NCBI GenBank assembly: GCA_029856235.1
Contig: JAHQWP010000081.1
Span: forward strand, 1-37,745
Source of the DNA: Promethearchaeia archaeon
GTDB lineage: Archaea > Asgardarchaeota > Lokiarchaeia > Sigyniarchaeales > SOKP01
Direction of reading: 5' to 3'
DNA: 37,745 nt
Shown here: positions 8,890 to 24,991 of the stretch, in pieces
How the letters are laid out: every line of letters begins with the position of its first letter
How positions within the stretch are numbered: position 1 is the first letter of the stretch
Notes under the pieces: model-generated
Told to the model about the DNA's origin: nothing
Database searches by the model: none
Seen by the model: the letters and a program-made list of their open reading frames with translations, nothing else
Program-made: the position numbers and the translations under genes

Positions 8890-10191
8890 CTATATTTTTT
8901 TATAGCTCTTTCTTTTAATGACAATAAGTGCAACAAATGTTGGTAAAGCAAATAGAATGAACCAATATCCGAAAGAAATTCCTGCTGGAGATATCGTTAA
9001 TATATCTTGAAAGAAGAGATATACTTGTTGATCTTCACCACCAGCGGTAATAAAAGCACCGTTTGCAGACATAGCAACAGCATAGATTATTCCCCCCGTA
9101 GTATAATTCCATAGTGGAATTGGGCTTGACCTTTCAAAAACATAGATATAATTATCGTTACTCCCTACAGCGAGGTATTTACCATCCGCGGAGATATCTA
9201 TACAATGAGGATGGTCAGTATCACCAATTTGGGCACCGGTAGTATAATTCCATAGGGGTGTTGAGCTTGATCTTTCGAAAAAGTAGATAGAATAATCATT
9301 CCCCCCTGCAGTAATATAATTTCCGTTAGAATTTATAGCAACAGAATATACTGAATCGCCAGCAGTATAAGACCAGATTGGTACATTGCTAGAAGGAGCA
9401 AAAAGCAACACTTTAGAATTTTGTGTTCCTGCAACAAGATAATTTCCATCATCGGAAATCTCTACGACGTTTACAGCATTACCTTCTGTAAAATTCCATA
9501 ATGGAGTCGAGCTAGCTTTTTCAAACAGATATAAGTGGTCATCTTCGCTGGCTACAGCAATATAATTTCCATCAGCAGAAATAGAAACTGACCAAACGCT
9601 AGTTCCTGTGGAAAAACTCCACATTTCAGTTTTAGGGTTACTATATGTGCTATTAAATAGATAGACGGTCCCATCATCTGTAGCTGCTACGATGTAATCT
9701 CCATTAGCAGACATAGCAATATCATTCGGAAAATCTGAGGTTGGAGAAAATTCCCATTCTGGTCTTTTGGGGGAAGTTATTGAATCATTAAAATACATAA
9801 CATTTTGTTCGTCACTGACTGCAGCTATGTGATTTCCGTCAGGAGTAATATCTACGCCATACGCGCTATTAGTTGCGTTATAGGTCCACAGCGGAATTTT
9901 TGATTCAGATGCCTCATCGTTAAATAGGTAAATTAACCCATCATCGGAATAAGTACTAGCAGCAACCAAATCTCCATCAGCAGTAATTGTAACATCTCGA
10001 ATGTTATCATTTGTCGTGTAATTCCATCGAAGTTCAGCAACATCGGGATCCAAACTAGATGAGGGGGAGGAAACTTTAATATCAGCGTCAGCTAGAGCAA
10101 CTGAGAAAATATTTATGCCACTCAAAAATAGCATTATTACTAACACGAATTTGAAACTATTAGAAGTTTTTGTCAAAAATATCAATTCCAA
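8890..10191 (-). CDS. secreted eight-bladed beta-propeller with C-terminal anchor
   Basis: About 430 residues. A signal peptide (FKFVLVIMLFLSGINIFSVALA) is followed by eight WD40/PQQ-like repeats of roughly 42-48 residues. Each has the pattern D-x-S-x-D/N-G-x-Y-I/L-x-A-x-x-x-D-x-x-x-Y-x-F followed by PLWxYTTG. The C-terminal hydrophobic segment (about 402-424) ends in KRKSYKKI, a stop-transfer anchor. Asn-x-Thr/Ser sequons in nearly every blade suggest an exposed glycosylated surface protein. Start choice is uncertain: the frame opens at TTG 10191, TTG 10176 gives a neater signal peptide (MTKTSNSFKFVL), and an ATG at 10221 with a perfect AAGGTGG site is in frame but separated by TAA (10194-10192). 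The function is probably binding or scaffolding, as no enzyme motif is seen. Confidence 0.8.
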   Translation of the reverse strand: MELIFLTKTSNSFKFVLVIMLFLSGINIFSVALADADIKVSSPSSSLDPDVAELRWNYTTNDNIRDVTITADGDLVAASTYSDDGLIYLFNDEASESKIPLWTYNATNSAYGVDITPDGNHIAAVSDEQNVMYFNDSITSPKRPEWEFSPTSDFPNDIAMSANGDYIVAATDDGTVYLFNSTYSNPKTEMWSFSTGTSVWSVSISADGNYIAVASEDDHLYLFEKASSTPLWNFTEGNAVNVVEISDDGNYLVAGTQNSKVLLFAPSSNVPIWSYTAGDSVYSVAINSNGNYITAGGNDYSIYFFERSSSTPLWNYTTGAQIGDTDHPHCIDISADGKYLAVGSNDNYIYVFERSSPIPLWNYTTGGIIYAVAMSANGAFITAGGEDQQVYLFFQDILTISPAGISFGYWFILFALPTFVALIVIKRKSYKKI

Positions 10192-10221
10192 TTATTGTAT
10201 TGATGTATTAAATAAATTCAT
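10192..10221 (-). other. short in-frame leader ORF before the propeller gene
   Basis: ATG 10221 is preceded at six bases by AAGGTGG, the best ribosome-binding site in the area. It encodes MNLFNTSIQ and then TAA, immediately followed in the same frame by the TTG of the propeller gene. Either a termination-reinitiation leader, or a nonsense mutation that moved the effective start downstream. The remaining stretch to 10403 holds nothing recognisable apart from A/T-rich sequence. Confidence 0.4.
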
Positions 10222-10460
10222 GGACTTCCACCTTTATTAATTTTAAGTTTTAATTGCTAAAAGAAAAACAACCCTTAGTTTAATTTCTTTAGCGTAAAAA
10301 TCTTTAAAGCAAATAGCAATACAAAAATAAAAAAAACAAAGAAGTCTGTTTATCGAACTAGGTTCAAATTAAGAATTTTGAGGAGATAATTCGTTTTTTG
10401 TAAAAGTATAATCTTTTTGACGATAAAATCATATCGATACTTAACGAACGAAATGTTGAG

Positions 10461-10829
10461 TTGGAAATTAAGTTAGTTTTTCAAGACCATTCTATTGCGA
10501 TGGAGATTCAAAAAAAACTTCCAAAAGTGGAAGTACGAATTCTTGAATCCCCCGCTTTGAATAACATTCAGAATCTTTTTGGCAAAATTGGAGACTTTCT
10601 TCAACCCGACCAAAGGAAATCTTATACATATCAAATCATTAAGAATATCATATTAAAATTAGAAGAGATTTTCGGATTAATTGTCATAGATGATAGAAAA
10701 AGTTTCTTTAAAATCCCTATTCCGATTGATTTACCGATGGCTATTTTCAGTACATCTCAAGAAGTTGTGCAATTTCATTCAAAAGGTATCAAAGAAATTT
10801 TAGCTTCATCCATTAAAATAAAGAAATAA
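10461..10829 (+). pseudogene. C-terminal fragment resembling TrmB/PLD-like regulators
   Basis: A 122-residue frame from TTG 10461. Coding similarity seems to start earlier: the same frame is open back to 10404 (KYNLFDDKIISILNERNVEL), and beyond a TAA (10401-10403) it continues to GAGGAG plus ATT at 10389. The pattern of helix, then KVEVRIL, then FGLIVIDDRKSFFKI, then a final helix resembles the PLD-like effector domain of archaeal TrmB-family regulators (EVR-x-L, then a xxIVDD/G-x-E strand). The N-terminal winged helix expected for that family is absent, so I read it as a truncated remnant, although a free-standing small protein is not excluded. Confidence 0.4.
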
Positions 10830-10896
10830 CACATCTGAAAGCTAAAAAATAAATAATAATAATATAAAAATATTTCAGTAGGTAGCGTTCTTACAA

Positions 10897-11556
10897 ATGT
10901 CTTATGTATATATGAAAGCGTTGGAAAAAAGAGCAGAAAAATACGATAAGGGAATAAACTCTATAACACTTGGGCGCCTTCCTAAAATTAAAAACTATAT
11001 CTCAAGTACTTTAGTGCATAAAAACGAGAAAATTTTAGATATTGGGATGGGTACGGGAACTTTTGCCATTCTTTGTGCTGAAAAAGGAGCATTTTTTACC
11101 GGTATTGATAATTCCGATAAAATGCTTGAGGTAGCAAGAAAAAACATTGAACTAGAAGGATTAACCGAGAGGATTCAAATCATCAAAATGCCCGTTATTG
11201 AACTAGATAAACAGTTTTCTGACAAATCTTTTGATAAGATAACAGCTATTTTGATACTTAGCGAACTTTATCGAGCTGAACAAGATTTTTGCCTTAACCA
11301 AATCTATAGAATCTTAAATGACGATGGAGAATTTATTTTAGTTGATGAGGTTAAACCAAAGAAAATTTGGAAGAAAATTGTCTATTTTGTTATTAGAGTT
11401 CCCCTAGTAATTATCACATATTTTAAATCACAGCTGACTACTCAATCTTTAAAGAATACAGAAAAAAGACTTGAAAGTCATAATTTTTCTTTAATTGAAG
11501 AAAAACATTATTTATTAGATTCCTTGAAATTATTTAGGCTGAAAAAAATAACCTAG
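10897..11556 (+). CDS. class I SAM-dependent methyltransferase
   Basis: A 219-residue Rossmann methyltransferase. Motif I is ILDIGMGTGTFAIL (about residues 47-60), followed by the acidic ribose-binding FFTGIDNSDKMLEVAR and motif IV region FDKITAILILSEL. The C-terminal part has one hydrophobic stretch (VYFVIRVPLVIITYF) and ends in LFRLKK. It is 28 bp upstream of the HgcAB-like fusion and on the same strand, so the two form an operon. Methyltransferases of this kind next to corrinoid proteins have been annotated as corrinoid-protein-associated; a role in methylating or maintaining the neighbouring corrinoid protein is inference from position only. Confidence 0.8.
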   Translation: MSYVYMKALEKRAEKYDKGINSITLGRLPKIKNYISSTLVHKNEKILDIGMGTGTFAILCAEKGAFFTGIDNSDKMLEVARKNIELEGLTERIQIIKMPVIELDKQFSDKSFDKITAILILSELYRAEQDFCLNQIYRILNDDGEFILVDEVKPKKIWKKIVYFVIRVPLVIITYFKSQLTTQSLKNTEKRLESHNFSLIEEKHYLLDSLKLFRLKKIT

Positions 11557-11584: not shown

Positions 11585-12676
11585 ATGAACTTAAAAAAGG
11601 CCTTTAACTTATTCTTAAGTTACTTTTTAAGGTGGACAGGTTTTCCTGTTGAACCAACCCTTTTAAAAATTGGGAATCCTACTAAAGAAAGTCCCGTTTT
11701 GGTCACTTGTAATTTTAATCTCACGGTAAAACGAGTTTTAAAGGCAGTAAAGAATATTGACTGTTATTTATTAATTGCTCCCTCCAAAGGGATAAATGTA
11801 TGGTGTGGTGCATGTGGAGATGATTTTCACACCGATTCTGTCTTGTCGATTATAAAAACTAGTGGAATTGATGATCTTGTGGCTCATAGAACTTTGATTT
11901 TACCGCAATTAAGTGCACCTGGTATAAATCCAACTGTTATTAAGAAAAAATCGGGATGGAACGTTAAATTTGGACCTGTATATGCTAAAGATATCCCTTC
12001 TTATATAGAACAAGATTTCAGTAAATCAGAAGCACATCGGATAGTGAGATTCCCAATCTCAAATAGATTAGAAATGGCTTCGCTATATTTCTTTCTTTTA
12101 CTTCTGTTAACTTCCGTTATATATTGGATCGTAGCTATTTTTTTACCAATTTTGAATTTATTACTCTTTTTAGATACTATTTTGATTTTTGTGGGTCTAA
12201 TTTACGGTCCTATGTTAATTTTGCCGAGTATTACCTGGAAAACGGGAAAACAAAAAATATGGATCTATGAAGTGATAATTCTTTTGATAATATTGCTATT
12301 TAACCTTTTTATTAGATTCGATCTATTATATCTAATTTGGAATATAGTCGCTTCTCTTTTAATTACAATGATTATGGCTGAAGATCTTCATGGTTTAACT
12401 CCAATTTTTAAAAGTGAATTAGGTGAAAAGACTTGGGAGAAAGGTGGTGAAAAAATGAAATTTTTGTTCAGCGAATATAAATTACAACCATACGGTCAAA
12501 TAATTCTGGAGAGAGATAAATGTATTGGATGTATAGTGTGTATTGAAGTATGTCCTAGAAATTTATATGTATTTAATGAAAAAGATGAAAAAGTGGATTT
12601 AAGAAACTCTGAGAAATGCATAAATTGTAACGCTTGCGTTAAAAGATGTTTAGCTCAATGTCTTGAAATAAAATAA
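11585..12676 (+). CDS. HgcA/HgcB-like fused corrinoid iron-sulfur membrane protein
   Basis: A 363-residue fusion. Residues 30-145 match the corrinoid-binding domain of HgcA: SPVLVTCNF, then the cap-helix motif INVWCGACGDDF with Cys74 at the cobalt-ligating position, then HRTLILPQLSAPG and SGWNVKFGPVYAKDIP. Residues about 164-265 contain four to five transmembrane helices, as in HgcA. Residues 295-363 form an HgcB-like ferredoxin with two clusters (CIGCIVCIEVCPRN at C313-C323; CINCNACVKRC at C345-C355). The canonical HgcA signature is NVWCAAGK; here CAAGK is CGACG, and HgcB's C-terminal cysteine pair is missing. HgcA and HgcB methylate Hg(II) using a corrinoid methyl group; fused forms known from thermophiles were, as I recall, not mercury methylators. 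The physiological methyl acceptor is unknown. Confidence 0.85.
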   Translation: MNLKKAFNLFLSYFLRWTGFPVEPTLLKIGNPTKESPVLVTCNFNLTVKRVLKAVKNIDCYLLIAPSKGINVWCGACGDDFHTDSVLSIIKTSGIDDLVAHRTLILPQLSAPGINPTVIKKKSGWNVKFGPVYAKDIPSYIEQDFSKSEAHRIVRFPISNRLEMASLYFFLLLLLTSVIYWIVAIFLPILNLLLFLDTILIFVGLIYGPMLILPSITWKTGKQKIWIYEVIILLIILLFNLFIRFDLLYLIWNIVASLLITMIMAEDLHGLTPIFKSELGEKTWEKGGEKMKFLFSEYKLQPYGQIILERDKCIGCIVCIEVCPRNLYVFNEKDEKVDLRNSEKCINCNACVKRCLAQCLEIK

Positions 12677-14377: not shown

Positions 14378-14644
14378 CTATTTTAAATCGAAGTAATCAT
14401 TAACGAGGGAATAAAATCTTTTTAATACTTCTTCCCCTCGGGCTGTTGTGTGATATTTTGTAATATCATCGTCATTTAGTTGTTCAATTAGTTTTCGGGA
14501 GATGAGAAAATGAAGAGTTTCTTTTATTGCACTCGTTTTTAACCGTGTTTCGCGTAATAACCACGTTTGAGTTCTTTTTGCTCTTAGACAAAATTCCAGA
14601 ATTTCTGCCCAAATTTCAAATTTATTACGTCTTGAAGAACTCAT
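14378..14644 (-). CDS. small archaeal winged-helix regulator
   Basis: An 88-residue single winged-helix domain of the archaeal HTH_45-like type. KFEIWAEILEFCLRAKRTQTWLLRETRL gives helices 1-2, SAIKETLHFLISRKLIEQ the recognition helix, and ITKYHTTARGEEVLKRF the wing and last helix. The phrase T-x-x-G-x-x-x-L is typical of this family. It follows the membrane-protein gene by 22 bp on the same strand, so the two are one operon and the regulator may sense or control the membrane protein. Confidence 0.8.
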   Translation of the reverse strand: MSSSRRNKFEIWAEILEFCLRAKRTQTWLLRETRLKTSAIKETLHFLISRKLIEQLNDDDITKYHTTARGEEVLKRFYSLVNDYFDLK

Positions 14645-14666
14645 TGATGTCTCACCTTAATAAGAA

Positions 14667-15398
14667 TTACGGGCGTGCCTCCTCGTCAAATAAAATTGAA
14701 TTTTCGGAAGAAAATTGTTCTAATTCTTGAGCCCATTCTTCTAGTTTAGGGAACAGTTTTTCCCATCTGACAATTTCCTTTTGAATTTTAAATGAGGTCA
14801 ACAAACTTATGAACCAAAAGGTTAGTAGTAATAGAAATATTATTACCATAGATATATTTATTAAAACATAGGCACTTCCAATATCTAAAATACGTGTAAA
14901 TAAGAAGATTACGAGAAAACCAAAAAAGAAATTAAAGAATAGGAAAGTTTCCACGAGTTTAACCAAAGTTGTTTTTTGTTTCGAATAGCGCTTAAAAAAC
15001 GCAGAGAAATTGGTAATGTATGGGACGATTCCGTCGTAGAGAGTAGTCTTTGGCGTTTTATCTCCTTTAGACTGTTTAAGAGAACGATTTCCTCTGATTA
15101 TGAATAATCCATAAAAAATTATCTGTATTCCTATCTCTATAATTAGTAGAAAAAGAACTGAAGCTATCAGAATAGTCACTATGGTTCCAAATAAGCCGTA
15201 TATTTGGGCTAGCTCCGGGATTGTTTGTCCTGTAACTACTAAATATATCCAAAGAATAATATACCCTAATGCCAATAAAAATAGCAAGGTTAAGGACGAG
15301 AAATGAATTTTAAATAGGCGATTTATTCTTTTGAATTTTGTATACAATGATTTTTGGCTCTGAATTAAGCCATTTTTTTTATTTTCGGTTTTATCCAT
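14667..15398 (-). CDS. four-helix membrane protein of unknown function
   Basis: A 243-residue protein with four transmembrane segments in two pairs, about residues 36-57, 66-92, 154-174 and 180-203 (SSLTLLFLLALGYIILWIYL; FLFFNFFFGFLVIFLFTRIL). A basic cytoplasmic loop lies between the pairs (NRSLKQSKGDKTPK) and the tail is acidic. I do not recognise the family. It is co-transcribed with the winged-helix gene that starts 22 bp downstream. Upstream, on the minus strand, a CTTAAATATC box and AAGGTGG before the ATG mark the promoter and ribosome-binding site. Confidence 0.65.
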   Translation of the reverse strand: MDKTENKKNGLIQSQKSLYTKFKRINRLFKIHFSSLTLLFLLALGYIILWIYLVVTGQTIPELAQIYGLFGTIVTILIASVLFLLIIEIGIQIIFYGLFIIRGNRSLKQSKGDKTPKTTLYDGIVPYITNFSAFFKRYSKQKTTLVKLVETFLFFNFFFGFLVIFLFTRILDIGSAYVLINISMVIIFLLLLTFWFISLLTSFKIQKEIVRWEKLFPKLEEWAQELEQFSSENSILFDEEARP

Positions 15399-19753: not shown

Positions 19754-21487
19754 TTAGTTTTTTTCATATTTATGTAAAATTTCTTGCTTTCTATGCCTCA
19801 AACTATCGAAATCGTAATTTTGTTCAAAGAAAAAATCAAATGGGTCCTTGATATTCTCCATTAGTGGTTCTGAGTAGAACTTTTCGTATATATGTTTGCC
19901 TTTTTCAGTTAATTTTACCATATTATGATTTTCTTCTCTCAATAAGCCGTTGTTTATTAAGTTTTTAATTACAGAATTAATTCCATTTTCTTTGAATATA
20001 TAAAGACCAAAATATGCAAAATTTGTATAAATTTCTTCGCTCTTCCTTAAAGAATGTTGAAATTCCTCGTTAAGCTCATTCAAGGGTAGCAATTTTTCGT
20101 TTTTATCAATAAAAACTGATAAAATCCATTTATTAATATATTCCTCGAAGTTTTCTTCAAAAGACATTTGGAACTTCTCAAATTCAATCTCTTCTTCTTT
20201 TCCCGTTATGAATTCGCTAATAATCTCGTAAATTTCTTTAAAAATGAAGAAACTTACTAAAATTGCTATAATTGGATCAAAATAAAAAAACCACACATTT
20301 CCTTGAAGTCTCCCGAATTCAGAAAGAAGGGCACCTAAAATTATACCAATAGAAATTATTATATTTATTCTTGAATCTATAGCGCTTGCGACTAACGAAG
20401 AATTTCTATTCTTTTTTCCCACAAAACTTTTCAATGTACGTAAATAAGTGTTTAGGAATATAGATATTATAGCAATTATTATGATAATATGGGCCAAGTT
20501 AATCGGTTCTGGCCCCCGTATTAAAGATACGATTGATTCATAAAGTATTGTTCCGCCAGCAAACGCCATTAAGATTATCAAAATAATGTTAACCAGTTTT
20601 TCTTTATTGAATCTTATTCCTATACCAATTAATACTACTGCGATGCAATCTAGAAAATTCTCAATACCTTCAGCATGAAGTGAATCTGAATTAAAATTTC
20701 CAATAAAAATTTTCAGCAAACTAAGAATTAATAATCCAATAAAGGATCTAATTAAGACTCCTCTACTGTTTAAAATCTTATTATATCTTTTTATTTGATT
20801 TTGTAAAGTTTCATTCCATAATTTGACCTTTTTTTTTCCTTTATTATTTAATGTAACAATATTGTCTTCATTAATATCTGCTAGTCGAATGCCACATAAA
20901 TGATATATTGAAGAAGCTGCAGTTTCATCGTTAAAATAACCTTCTGGTATAAAAATATTGAACAACCCCTTGATCCTACTTTTTAAATTACCGAATTTCA
21001 TTATCCCTTCTTGACTTAAATATTTCATAGCCGCATATTCTACTCTGTTTATTGGAAATAAATCTGTTTTTCTTCGATGGAAAGCAACAGCAATTATTCT
21101 GATAAGGTGATTGATCGATGCTAAAATAAGGATAATAATGCCTAAAAGTAGTATGAAGCTTGCTACTATCCCGAAGCCGATATATTCATGATAAATGAAA
21201 TAATAAGGTATGAAATATACTTGAACATAAACAAATATAATTCCAAATATTATCCAAGGTGTTAATAGATTTCTTACTACTTTTCTAATGTGAAATTGTA
21301 TAAAGAATTCATTAATGGCTCTTCTCAAATGGGGGGCAACGAAAAACACCCCAATGTAGGTTACCATAAAACTCCATCTAAAAGTACCAGTCAATATAAT
21401 TTCTATAATAGATGATATTAGAGATAGTAAAATGTAAGAAAGAAGCACTTTTTTATAATCTAACTCCCAAAATTTGTTAATCCACAT
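19754..21487 (-). CDS. CDF-like cation transporter fused to two winged-helix domains
   Basis: A 577-residue fusion. Residues 12-135 contain about four transmembrane segments of no known family. Residues 147-222 form a soluble winged-helix-like domain (INRVEYAAMKYLSQEG, then VTLNNKGKKKVKLW). Residues 244-428 are a six-helix cation-diffusion-facilitator unit with NSDSLHAEGIENFLDC in TM2 and NSSLVASAIDSRINII in TM5. Residues about 470-537 form a second winged-helix-like domain (FAYFGLYIFKENGINSVIKNLINNGLL, then VKLTEKGKHIYEKF), where CDF proteins normally carry their metal-sensing dimerisation domain. Aligned with the HxxxD sites of Zn transporters, TM2 reads E276xxxD280 and TM5 D371xxxN375, so metal choice should differ. 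A paralogue on the other strand lies 1.6 kb away (23120-24991), with the EFR1 operon between them. Confidence 0.75.
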   Translation of the reverse strand: MWINKFWELDYKKVLLSYILLSLISSIIEIILTGTFRWSFMVTYIGVFFVAPHLRRAINEFFIQFHIRKVVRNLLTPWIIFGIIFVYVQVYFIPYYFIYHEYIGFGIVASFILLLGIIILILASINHLIRIIAVAFHRRKTDLFPINRVEYAAMKYLSQEGIMKFGNLKSRIKGLFNIFIPEGYFNDETAASSIYHLCGIRLADINEDNIVTLNNKGKKKVKLWNETLQNQIKRYNKILNSRGVLIRSFIGLLILSLLKIFIGNFNSDSLHAEGIENFLDCIAVVLIGIGIRFNKEKLVNIILIILMAFAGGTILYESIVSLIRGPEPINLAHIIIIIAIISIFLNTYLRTLKSFVGKKNRNSSLVASAIDSRINIIISIGIILGALLSEFGRLQGNVWFFYFDPIIAILVSFFIFKEIYEIISEFITGKEEEIEFEKFQMSFEENFEEYINKWILSVFIDKNEKLLPLNELNEEFQHSLRKSEEIYTNFAYFGLYIFKENGINSVIKNLINNGLLREENHNMVKLTEKGKHIYEKFYSEPLMENIKDPFDFFFEQNYDFDSLRHRKQEILHKYEKN

Positions 21488-21640
21488 ATGTTTCGACCCT
21501 CTACAATTAATTTGATTATATAATGTAGATAATCGAATTATGAATATATATTCTTTTATCGTATCCTTAAAAATTCTCTAATGTATTCTAAGATTTTAAA
21601 TGGAATTGGATTGGAATATACTCCAATTTGGATAATAAGT

Positions 21641-22453
21641 TTAAAATATTATCTTACTTCTCTTATTTTCGACCACATCTTCAGTCAATCCGAAACGTTT
21701 TTTAAATTTCTCAAATAACTGAGACACATCACCAATGTGGATTGCCTTGTCCGGACAGATTGATACGCAGTGCATACACTGGATACATCTTTTTCTGTTA
21801 GGTTCACCTAAAAGAGCATCAAAAGCTTCTACTGGACATTCTTTTTCGCACATATAACACATGCTACAATCATCAGTATCTCTCAAAGGATAAAAATTCT
21901 TCCAAAATCCATGAGATTCCCTAACCTTTTTAGATTTATAGGTAAAATCTGATAAATCTATATTAAATTTAGAGTCCCTTTTAAACTGAATAATTGTCTG
22001 TAATGCAAATTCTGTTGCAACATCAAAATCTAATTGATTAGGCCTGCCTTCTGCTAGTGACCATCCTTTTGCGACATTGAAAGAATGTTTTCCGATAAAT
22101 TCTGCTGACAAGACAACTTTAAAATTCGCCTGTGTTAATAAATAAAAAGTAACCTGATGTGCCAGTTCTAAATCTCGGGCCCCGTATGTAAAAAACATGG
22201 AACATTTCTGATTCCTACCATTAAGTGTTTTCATCCACTCTTCAGCAATAGAGGGCGGCCGTCCTCCGAAGACGGGAAATCCGAATATACACGCATCAAA
22301 TTCAAGGAAATCAACTTGAGAGCGTCTACTATTGGGTATAATGATGTTTTTAAGTGTAATAGAGTGGCCTTCTTTTTCTAATATCGTAGCAATGTGATTT
22401 GAAACGGTTTCAGTTATCCCTGTTGCTGAGAAATAAAAGATTGCAATATTCAT
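21641..22453 (-). CDS. EFR1-type flavodoxin plus 4Fe-4S ferredoxin
   Basis: A 270-residue protein starting at ATG 22453, where MNIAIFYFSATGITETVS is the expected flavodoxin FMN-binding start; the longer open frame upstream belongs to the overlapping gene. The flavodoxin-like domain covers about residues 1-160 (FPVFGGRPPSIAEEW, FFTYGARD). Two 4Fe-4S motifs follow: CSMCYMCEKECPVEA and CIQCMHCVSICPDKA. EFR1 proteins are electron carriers of anaerobes with partly unknown partners. The start codon overlaps the stop of the preceding membrane-protein gene (ATGA, 22450-22453), so the two are translationally coupled and probably work together. Confidence 0.85.
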   Translation of the reverse strand: MNIAIFYFSATGITETVSNHIATILEKEGHSITLKNIIIPNSRRSQVDFLEFDACIFGFPVFGGRPPSIAEEWMKTLNGRNQKCSMFFTYGARDLELAHQVTFYLLTQANFKVVLSAEFIGKHSFNVAKGWSLAEGRPNQLDFDVATEFALQTIIQFKRDSKFNIDLSDFTYKSKKVRESHGFWKNFYPLRDTDDCSMCYMCEKECPVEAFDALLGEPNRKRCIQCMHCVSICPDKAIHIGDVSQLFEKFKKRFGLTEDVVENKRSKIIF

Positions 22454-22896
22454 TCGCTTTTTTTTCTTTTCTTGATGAGATAATACACCAATACAGCTAC
22501 AAAAGTCCAAAAAAGGATTCCCATTATCCAACCTAGCGTCGCATCAAGATATATAGTGCCAAATAAGAAAGAAAAAGCCGCAGCCCATTCTAAGATTATA
22601 TAGGGGACATGAGTAATTGCTTTTGATCGAAAATCATATTTGAAAACCCTATCAAGTACGAATTCTGCCATGAGATAAATGAAAATTAAGACAATATAAG
22701 TAATAAATCTCAGCTCTTTTCCGAAGGCAATATAATTTATCAAAATAGCAACTATTGGAAGCATCAGAACTGCAAGAATCACACCAAATATTAAAACAGT
22801 CTTCATTTTGTTATTGGCCATTAAGAATAGTGCACTAATCATCGAAATGAAAAAAATAATGCCTGAGATGATAAACATCCAATCAAATAAATCCAA
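22450..22896 (-). CDS. small five-helix membrane protein coupled to EFR1
   Basis: A 148-residue hydrophobic protein with about five transmembrane segments and a basic C-terminus (YYLIKKRKKSE). I do not recognise the family. Its stop codon overlaps the start of the flavodoxin-ferredoxin gene (ATGA), which suggests the membrane protein is the anchor or redox partner of that electron carrier. Confidence 0.65.
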   Translation of the reverse strand: MDLFDWMFIISGIIFFISMISALFLMANNKMKTVLIFGVILAVLMLPIVAILINYIAFGKELRFITYIVLIFIYLMAEFVLDRVFKYDFRSKAITHVPYIILEWAAAFSFLFGTIYLDATLGWIMGILFWTFVAVLVYYLIKKRKKSE

Positions 22897-23119
22897 CTTA
22901 AATTCTCCCTTATAATATAATTAACTTATTACTATACCAATGTGACATTATTTTTAAATTTTCAAAATAATTATCCAAAATCACAATCCTTTTTTACAAT
23001 GAATTTCTAAACAAATTCGTAAAAAAATGGACTCCTCATATCTTATATTGTACTAAATCCAAAATGATCTTGTGAATTGACACAATAAAGATATTTTTTT
23101 TGATTGGTGGCGCTAAAAA

Positions 23120-24991
23120 ATGAAATGGACCTATTTCTTAATTGGTTTGGGCTTAAGTATCGTCTTAATTACGTTTTTTATAGTAGAATTTCTATTTTTT
23201 AAAACGATATATTGGAGTTTCTTAGTTAGTATAGGGGTGATATTAAATTTTGCACATGTTCTTACACATAAATTTAATTGGGAGTTAGATACCAAAAAGG
23301 TGCTTTCGCTTTATTTTAGTATCTCTACAACATCGATAATCGTCGAATTTATGATAACAGGAAGTTATCTTTGGAGTTTTTCATTAACGGTTATGTCGCT
23401 TTTTTTTATAGGACACTATTTAACGAGTGGTTTTAACATTCTCTTTAAGCAATTCCACGTAAAAGAAATATATCGGGGATTAGTTAGTTTTTATTTGGTC
23501 TTCATTTATTTTTACATATTATTGTATATATTTCTTCAAACTCTTAATCAAAGCATTTTACTAATCGAATTTACTTTTATTTTTTACATATCTCTTATTT
23601 GTATGATTCTGCTAACGATAAATTCGCTAATTAGAATAATTGCAGTTGCTTTTCATAGAAGGAAGTCCGAATTGTTTCCAATTAATCGGATAGAATACGC
23701 TGCGTTATATTATTTAAGAAAAACAGATAATAATCTTCTCAATTTTTCGGAATTAAAAAAGAGGATTAGTGGAATATTTAACATCTTTATAGAAAAGGTT
23801 TATTTTGACGAAGATGTAGCTAAGTCTAGCATTTATTCTCTTTGTGCACTAGGATTTGCTGAGATTAAAAATACTGAAGTAAGCCTTACCGATGTAGGTA
23901 AACAGCAGGGTAAACTGTGGTATGAAATGTTAAACAACCAAATGAAGAATTTTAATAAAATTTTAAATAGAAATACTGTATTGATAAGGTCTTTCATCGG
24001 GTTATTTATTCTTAGCCTTCTCAAAATTGTAATAGGATTTTTCAATTCAGAATCATTGTTCGCAGAAGGGTTCGAAAACTTACTTGATTGTATCGCAGTT
24101 ATTTTAATTGTATTAGGTATTAAATTTAAAAAAGAAAAAGTAGTTAATGTAATCATTATAAGTTTAATGGCATTTACAGGAGGTTCAATTTTAGTAAATT
24201 CGATTCAATCCTTATTTTACGGTCCTGAACCCATTTCTAATGTAATATATATCGTGATAATCGCTATCCTATCAATTTTTTTAAATGTTTATTTACGGAT
24301 TTTGAAGAATTTTGTGGGGAAAAAAAATAGAAACTCTTCACTTATCGCTAGTGCGATAGATTCGAAGGTAAATATTATATTATCAATCAGTATCATAATA
24401 GGTGCTCTTTTATCGTATCTTGGAACTTCTCTGGGAATGCCCTTCTTTCATTATTTTGATCCAATTATCGCAATTTTTGTGTGCTTTCTCATATTTAAAG
24501 AAGTTTTTGAAATATTTCGTGATTTAATTACTTCAAAAGAAGAGGAAATTGAATTTGAGCAATTCCAAATGAATTACGAAAAGAATTTTAAAGAATACAT
24601 AACTAAGTGGATACTTACTGTGTATAATGATAATTCGAACGCGGAATTTACACCTAAGCAATTATCAGAATATTTTCAAAAATCGCTGAAGCAGGGTGAA
24701 GAGGTTTACACTGAGTTTGCTTATTTTGGGCTATATTTATTTAAAGAAAAAGGCATAACTTCTGTGATAAACGACCTACTTAATGAGAACTTGTTATCAC
24801 TCTCAGGGGGTGGCTTTCTCAGATTAACACCAAAAGGAGTATACTTCTACGAACATCTCTACTCTAAAGAATTAGTGAAAGATCTTAAAGATCCTTTTGA
24901 TTTCTTTTTTGAACAGCAAATTAGTTTTGATAGTTTAACATCGAGAAAGATTGAAATAATAGAAAATTTACATTCAATTACTAGTAAATGA
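23120..24991 (+). CDS. CDF-like cation transporter fused to winged-helix domains, paralogue 2
   Basis: A 623-residue paralogue of the 21487-19754 protein with the same order of parts: about five N-terminal transmembrane segments (two more at the start than its relative), a winged-helix-like domain at about 187-262 (INRIEYAALYYLRK; VSLTDVGKQQGKLW), a six-helix CDF unit at about 286-470, and a C-terminal winged-helix domain at about 505-590 (FAYFGLYLFKEKGITSVINDLLNENLL; LRLTPKGVYFYEHLY). The putative metal sites are E319xxxD323 in TM2 and D414xxxN418 in TM5, the same departures from HxxxD as in the paralogue. Sequence conservation runs over the entire chain, so the fusion predates the duplication. 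GGTGG precedes the ATG. Confidence 0.75.
   Translation: MKWTYFLIGLGLSIVLITFFIVEFLFFKTIYWSFLVSIGVILNFAHVLTHKFNWELDTKKVLSLYFSISTTSIIVEFMITGSYLWSFSLTVMSLFFIGHYLTSGFNILFKQFHVKEIYRGLVSFYLVFIYFYILLYIFLQTLNQSILLIEFTFIFYISLICMILLTINSLIRIIAVAFHRRKSELFPINRIEYAALYYLRKTDNNLLNFSELKKRISGIFNIFIEKVYFDEDVAKSSIYSLCALGFAEIKNTEVSLTDVGKQQGKLWYEMLNNQMKNFNKILNRNTVLIRSFIGLFILSLLKIVIGFFNSESLFAEGFENLLDCIAVILIVLGIKFKKEKVVNVIIISLMAFTGGSILVNSIQSLFYGPEPISNVIYIVIIAILSIFLNVYLRILKNFVGKKNRNSSLIASAIDSKVNIILSISIIIGALLSYLGTSLGMPFFHYFDPIIAIFVCFLIFKEVFEIFRDLITSKEEEIEFEQFQMNYEKNFKEYITKWILTVYNDNSNAEFTPKQLSEYFQKSLKQGEEVYTEFAYFGLYLFKEKGITSVINDLLNENLLSLSGGGFLRLTPKGVYFYEHLYSKELVKDLKDPFDFFFEQQISFDSLTSRKIEIIENLHSITSK

Follow-up and report, generated by a model that had tools for sequence, protein, structure and literature searches.

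Two nearby genes on contig JAHQWP010000081.1 of a Promethearchaeia archaeon (assembly GCA_029856235.1) encode cation diffusion facilitator (CDF)-like proteins in which the transport unit is framed by two winged-helix domains that replace the usual metal-sensing tail. The window analysed was the whole 37,745-nucleotide stretch of this contig. The open reading frames (ORFs), located as the original prediction had placed them, encode P1 (577 residues; 19754..21487, minus strand), recognised by its ORF, Cation_efflux match and relatives, and P2 (623 residues; 23120..24991, plus strand), recognised by its ORF, Cation_efflux match and structure model. Both are divergent members of the CDF family and belong to a subfamily of Promethearchaeota; judged from the sequences and the model, we give a probability of about 0.5 to the reading that they form a metal-moving or metal-sensing dimer in which winged helices have been used to rebuild the cytosolic module.

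CDF proteins are spread across all domains of life, and the proposed CDF unit was confirmed in both proteins. The Pfam family Cation_efflux was matched at 61.9 and 68.9 bits against a cut-off of 26.6, and in the P2 model the unit matched the fold of YiiP. It occupies 20198..20773 (minus strand) in P1, where Pfam and the site alignment identified the site E276, D280, D371 and N375, and 23963..24532 (plus strand) in P2, where alignment and the fold match identified E319, D323, D414 and N418. The extra N-terminal membrane domain claimed earlier was also found, as three hydrophobic stretches in the hydropathy of P1 (residues 1-135; 21083..21487, minus strand) and as six predicted helices in the P2 model (residues 2-165; 23120..23659, plus strand). 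A Pfam scan found no family for this domain in either protein.

The winged helices predicted on either side of the CDF unit were supported by topology and fold matches in P2 and by alignment in P1. In P2, model and fold matches placed them at residues 181-281 (23660..23962, plus strand) and 472-592 (24533..24895, plus strand), and both were predicted as winged helices and not as another fold. DSSP assignments of the models, together with the fold matches, gave a helix-strand-helix-helix-strand-strand topology for both domains, strand 1 of the C-terminal domain being a bridge only. The best fold matches of the C-terminal domain were PadR/MarR proteins, and the N-terminal domain was likewise best matched by MarR/PadR regulators. 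In P1 the N-terminal winged helix was assigned to about residues 136-238 (20774..21082, minus strand) by alignment and the P2 fold, and the C-terminal one, at the expected place of ZT_dimer (19841..20197, minus strand), by a weak HTH_45 match and the fold of the P2 domain. Family models gave faint signals that fell on P1 only: Pfam matches to HTH_45 (0.0046) and DUF4364 (0.00028), both below cut-off, and a weak NCBIfam match to Sso10a (0.0022); P2 had no Pfam winged-helix match. At E 0.05, 26 of the 47 members with winged helices matched HTH_45, with one of the nine scores inspected (L003) above cut-off; the PadR model was matched by one of 11 members in one scan (E 0.016) and by none in two other scans, and no MarR model was listed. 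Profiles of the N- and C-terminal winged helices built across all subgroups matched each other at 95.6% (E 1e-8, 79 columns), which suggests that the two domains are probably homologous.

The claimed absence of the usual CDF tail also held. A ZT_dimer tail is typical of CDF proteins, if not universal; it was unrecognisable in all 47 winged-helix members at E 0.05, a few of them truncated, and was present in all three other CDFs scanned, including one of the two non-winged-helix CDFs of this genome. Profile comparison of the winged helices of every subgroup with the ordinary CDF tail revealed no likeness (probabilities ≤1.1%). Five Cation_efflux genes were counted in the source genome, and three of these encode winged-helix CDFs; a CDF gene elsewhere in the same genome (L117, 1444-2700, plus strand) carries ZT_dimer followed by a Nitro_FeMo-Co-type domain. 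Misassembly was rejected as the source of the domain order because other assemblies show the same build, as does a third copy that lies on a different contig.

Indeed, the same architecture recurs in many related Promethearchaeota genomes. P2 was matched in 76 of 196 genomes of the phylum at E 0.001 and in 46 at 1e-15, with a distribution that was patchy even within the genus. Four builds were distinguished among the loci fetched from 45 of these 46 genomes (G035 was left out), some of which are cut by contig ends. The long build, that of P1 and P2, has the extra membrane domain; the short build has a C-terminal membrane helix and includes L003, the third copy in the source genome; the third corresponds to an E..D/E..H (EH) subgroup, and the fourth to a divergent D..D/D..H (DH) subgroup in which, by eye, an additional N-terminal winged helix and membrane region are present in two members and extra C-terminal parts in two others. 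Two proteins of 679-685 residues (L085, L087) show an apparent further N-terminal winged helix and multi-helix membrane region, followed by the winged helix-CDF-winged helix unit. Outside Promethearchaeota, the search consisted of a single strict-pattern scan of an 84,980-species collection, which returned 24 loci, all Lokiarchaeota or Lokiarchaeia by title.

In a tree of 69 CDF cores, one branch (96/94) separated 50 winged-helix rows from 19 others, with a 42-row core supported at 100/99; a first tree of 84 rows gave the same split (support 96). Fifteen of the 84 rows (near-copies, truncated or very long) were dropped for the smaller tree, L112 had been removed earlier, and L118 was excluded because it fell below the profile threshold. 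A single origin of the winged-helix CDFs is therefore likely rather than proven, since the non-winged-helix CDFs compared were all drawn from this one phylum, some of the rows are long, and the tree program cautions about long-branch joins. Purifying selection was seen on both the winged helices (0.09-0.24) and the core (0.08-0.24); the one outlier was a short tail segment at 1.6, a value resting on a tiny synonymous divergence (dS).

The intramembrane site was altered in a consistent manner. H/D..D on transmembrane helix 2 (TM2) and again on TM5 are the typical, although not strictly defining, CDF ligands. The long and short classes had E..D on TM2 and D..N on TM5 in 47/47 rows, and the other two subgroups had E/D/E/H in 8/8 rows and D/D/D/H in 7/7 (at least one gene, L048/L079, was entered twice in these counts). 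Each of the 22 rows that lacked winged-helix profile matches, two of which are pieces of L112, had Asp as the last TM5 ligand, whereas 62 of the 63 rows with winged helices had Asn or His there; the other three positions were acidic in those 62. Conservation of the site residues by subgroup argues for a metal chemistry that is kept but changed.

In the proposed mechanism the six-helix core would most likely form a YiiP-like homodimer whose altered site (TM2 E..D, TM5 D..N) would bind a divalent cation that the core transports or senses. By the known CDF topology, the two winged helices, the N-terminal of which precedes TM1 of the core, would both be expected in the cytosol. ZT_dimer in YiiP dimerises and responds to metal, and PadR/MarR proteins dimerise via helices around the winged helix; in P1 and P2 the dimerising role may have passed to the winged helices, which would also link metal occupancy with gating or with a partner in the cytosol; DNA binding would not be their main activity. 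This structural and coupling role, which we hold with moderate confidence, is preferred because the recognition helices are non-basic, a weak search saw no operator upstream of short-class genes and selection keeps the domains. In four of five subgroups the N- and C-terminal winged helices had mean net charges of opposite sign, which would suit mutual packing of the winged helices.

Several observations weigh against this reading. Both proteins scored below the cut-off of the NCBI CDF superfamily model TIGR01297 (61.3 and 70.0 bits against 82.35), and thus are divergent homologues, variants rather than canonical CDF transporters. The homology of the two winged helices was not seen inside most single subgroups (long, 3.1%; EH, 3.0%; short, 16%; DH, 90%). 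The charge pattern, which may be due to chance, is not seen in the DH subgroup, and PadR and MarR are themselves DNA-binding families. The one deviating winged-helix row, L093, has the canonical H/D/H/D site, so that winged helices do not always go together with an altered site, and the replacement of Asp by Asn on TM5 could signal lost transport. The last point would fit a pseudo-transporter, a non-transporting core that merely anchors the winged helices, for which the near-complete split of the second TM5 ligand between Asp and Asn/His speaks; the acidity of the other three positions, the conservation of the site residues within each subgroup and purifying selection on the core make this very improbable.

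The original prediction offered two readings of the winged helices, as parts of a one-component membrane regulator or as cytosolic interaction modules. In the regulator, a metal-driven change in the CDF core would set winged-helix DNA binding at the membrane. Some of the MarR/PadR structures matched by both domains were solved with operator DNA, and weak N-terminal profile matches (E 0.04-0.4) included the metal-dependent 4o5v, 5zr4, ScaR and SloR. Short-class proteins have a net positive C-terminal domain (+4.4; N-terminal, -2.0), and in 13 of the 25 loci of this class the opposite strand downstream encodes a protein whose L076 copy, the one scanned for families, has two winged-helix matches and is membrane-anchored by eye. 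In P1 and P2, however, neither recognition helix is basic and the C-terminal ones are acidic; across the long class, recognition-helix segments that we marked ourselves had mean net charges of 0.0 and -1.1, and the C-terminal domain averaged -4.4 (-4.8 by another cut). The charge test is weak, since the control, the tandem winged-helix membrane protein beside the short class, has one basic and one non-basic recognition helix (+2.6 and -0.6), and the charges thus speak only weakly against DNA binding by P1 and P2. In an alignment of 25 short-class loci, of which four are truncated or have an uncertain start, no conserved upstream operator was apparent, a weak test that covers the short class only, and long-class neighbourhoods are variable. 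We regard the regulator as unlikely, if worth keeping in view. Doubtful to a similar degree is a role of the winged helices as docking platforms for other proteins, like those of ESCRT complexes, that would bring a metal transporter to a cytosolic machine: the part of the literature consulted describes ESCRT systems built from winged helices, including Asgard ones (PMC11188069), and some members gain extra winged helices and membrane parts by eye, but no partner gene is conserved beside the long class. A metal 'transceptor' of Asgard archaea, in which one CDF protein would both pump the ion and, with the four cytosolic winged helices of its dimer bound to DNA at the membrane, report ion flux directly to genes, appears slightly less probable still. 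Interaction modules thus fit the proteins better than the DNA-binding alternative, which faces non-basic helices and an acidic C-terminal domain.

Between P1 and P2 lie an EFR1-type flavodoxin/ferredoxin gene (21641..22453, minus strand, with an internal ATG assumed as start; the ORF extends to 22531) and an ORF for a 148-residue hydrophobic protein (22450..22896, minus strand) with no Pfam or NCBIfam match below E 0.1. The EFR1 association pointed out earlier found no support as a meaningful link: in blastp clustering (E 1e-10 across half the length), EFR1 grouped with none of the ORFs in the fetched stretches of 44 other loci. It was therefore rejected as a functional partner and probably stands outside the winged-helix CDF system. 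The small hydrophobic gene recurred, among the loci compared, in L057 only, where no gene of the EFR1 cluster was listed. In L057, from a genome of the same genus, the search matched no more of the P1 orthologue than a stop-broken piece of 132 residues (about 12115-12510; G002:C77:26114-26509), which adjoins the P2 orthologue. No partner gene was conserved across the varying long-class neighbourhoods; the short-class neighbourhood was more conserved, 16 of the 25 loci having a nitroreductase and many having an M24 peptidase (families taken from the L076 copies; several loci are cut by contig ends).

Other winged-helix proteins were noted in these genomes. In L076, a protein with HTH_HVO_0163_N and HTH_24 matches (9700-10950, minus strand), membrane-anchored by eye, lies beside a short winged-helix CDF. 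The window encodes a stand-alone Sso10a-like winged helix (14381-14647, minus strand), which scores highest against HTH_45 in the genome (45.8 bits), adjoining a 243-residue hydrophobic protein (14667-15398, minus strand); relatives of both are paired in L056. Among 14 HTH_45 matches in the genome, two are CDF proteins (L129, L131) and one is the stand-alone protein (L122). Eight further matches in six frames (L123, L124/L130, L125, L128/L134, L132, L133), read in the part fetched, had no hydrophobic helix, and the idea of winged helices on other membrane proteins of this genome was dropped on that reading; L126, L135 and L127 were left out of this reading. By eye, L123, L124, L125, L128 and L133 are large proteins with N-terminal tandem winged helices and a TPR-like C-terminal part.

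PadR/LmrR and MarR regulators are soluble DNA-binding dimers; they share the predicted fold of both P1/P2 domains at 8-19% identity among the matches listed, and their DNA-contact features are not evident in the winged-helix CDFs. Archaeal HVO_0163-like proteins, such as the neighbour of the short-class gene, also combine winged helices with a membrane part by eye, but have no transporter unit, and their winged-helix profiles match the P1/P2 kind at ≤8.5%, not clearly. ZnT9 (SLC30A9/HUEL/GAC63) reportedly acts as a coactivator. YiiP/FieF and ZnT CDFs have ZT_dimer, whereas none was found in P1 and P2, which have two winged helices instead. The E..D/D..N site of P1 and P2 differs from H..D/H..D, and also from D..D/H..D, the FieF site according to the portion consulted of a paper (PMC1868760). 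That paper also describes ZnT9/HUEL as a CDF in which one region is DNA-binding-like; a title in its reference list calls this region XPA-like, rather than winged helices flanking the core. The sections consulted of a survey of Asgard transporters report CDF homologues in all five proteomes and a ZnT9 homologue in a Heimdall proteome, and do not contain 'DNA-binding', 'winged' or 'helix-turn-helix' (PMC7997004). A search of the literature on CDF proteins with winged helices or DNA-binding domains, mostly outside subscription journals, yielded no report of such a build among the papers listed, in line with the architecture having been called unfamiliar.

The cytosolic tail of CDF proteins serves as a model for metal-controlled gating, and a lineage with two winged helices per chain in this place and changed ligands would be a natural experiment on coupling in the CDF dimer. 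If the winged helices do bind DNA, the archaea closest to eukaryotes would have a switch that leads directly from transporter to gene.
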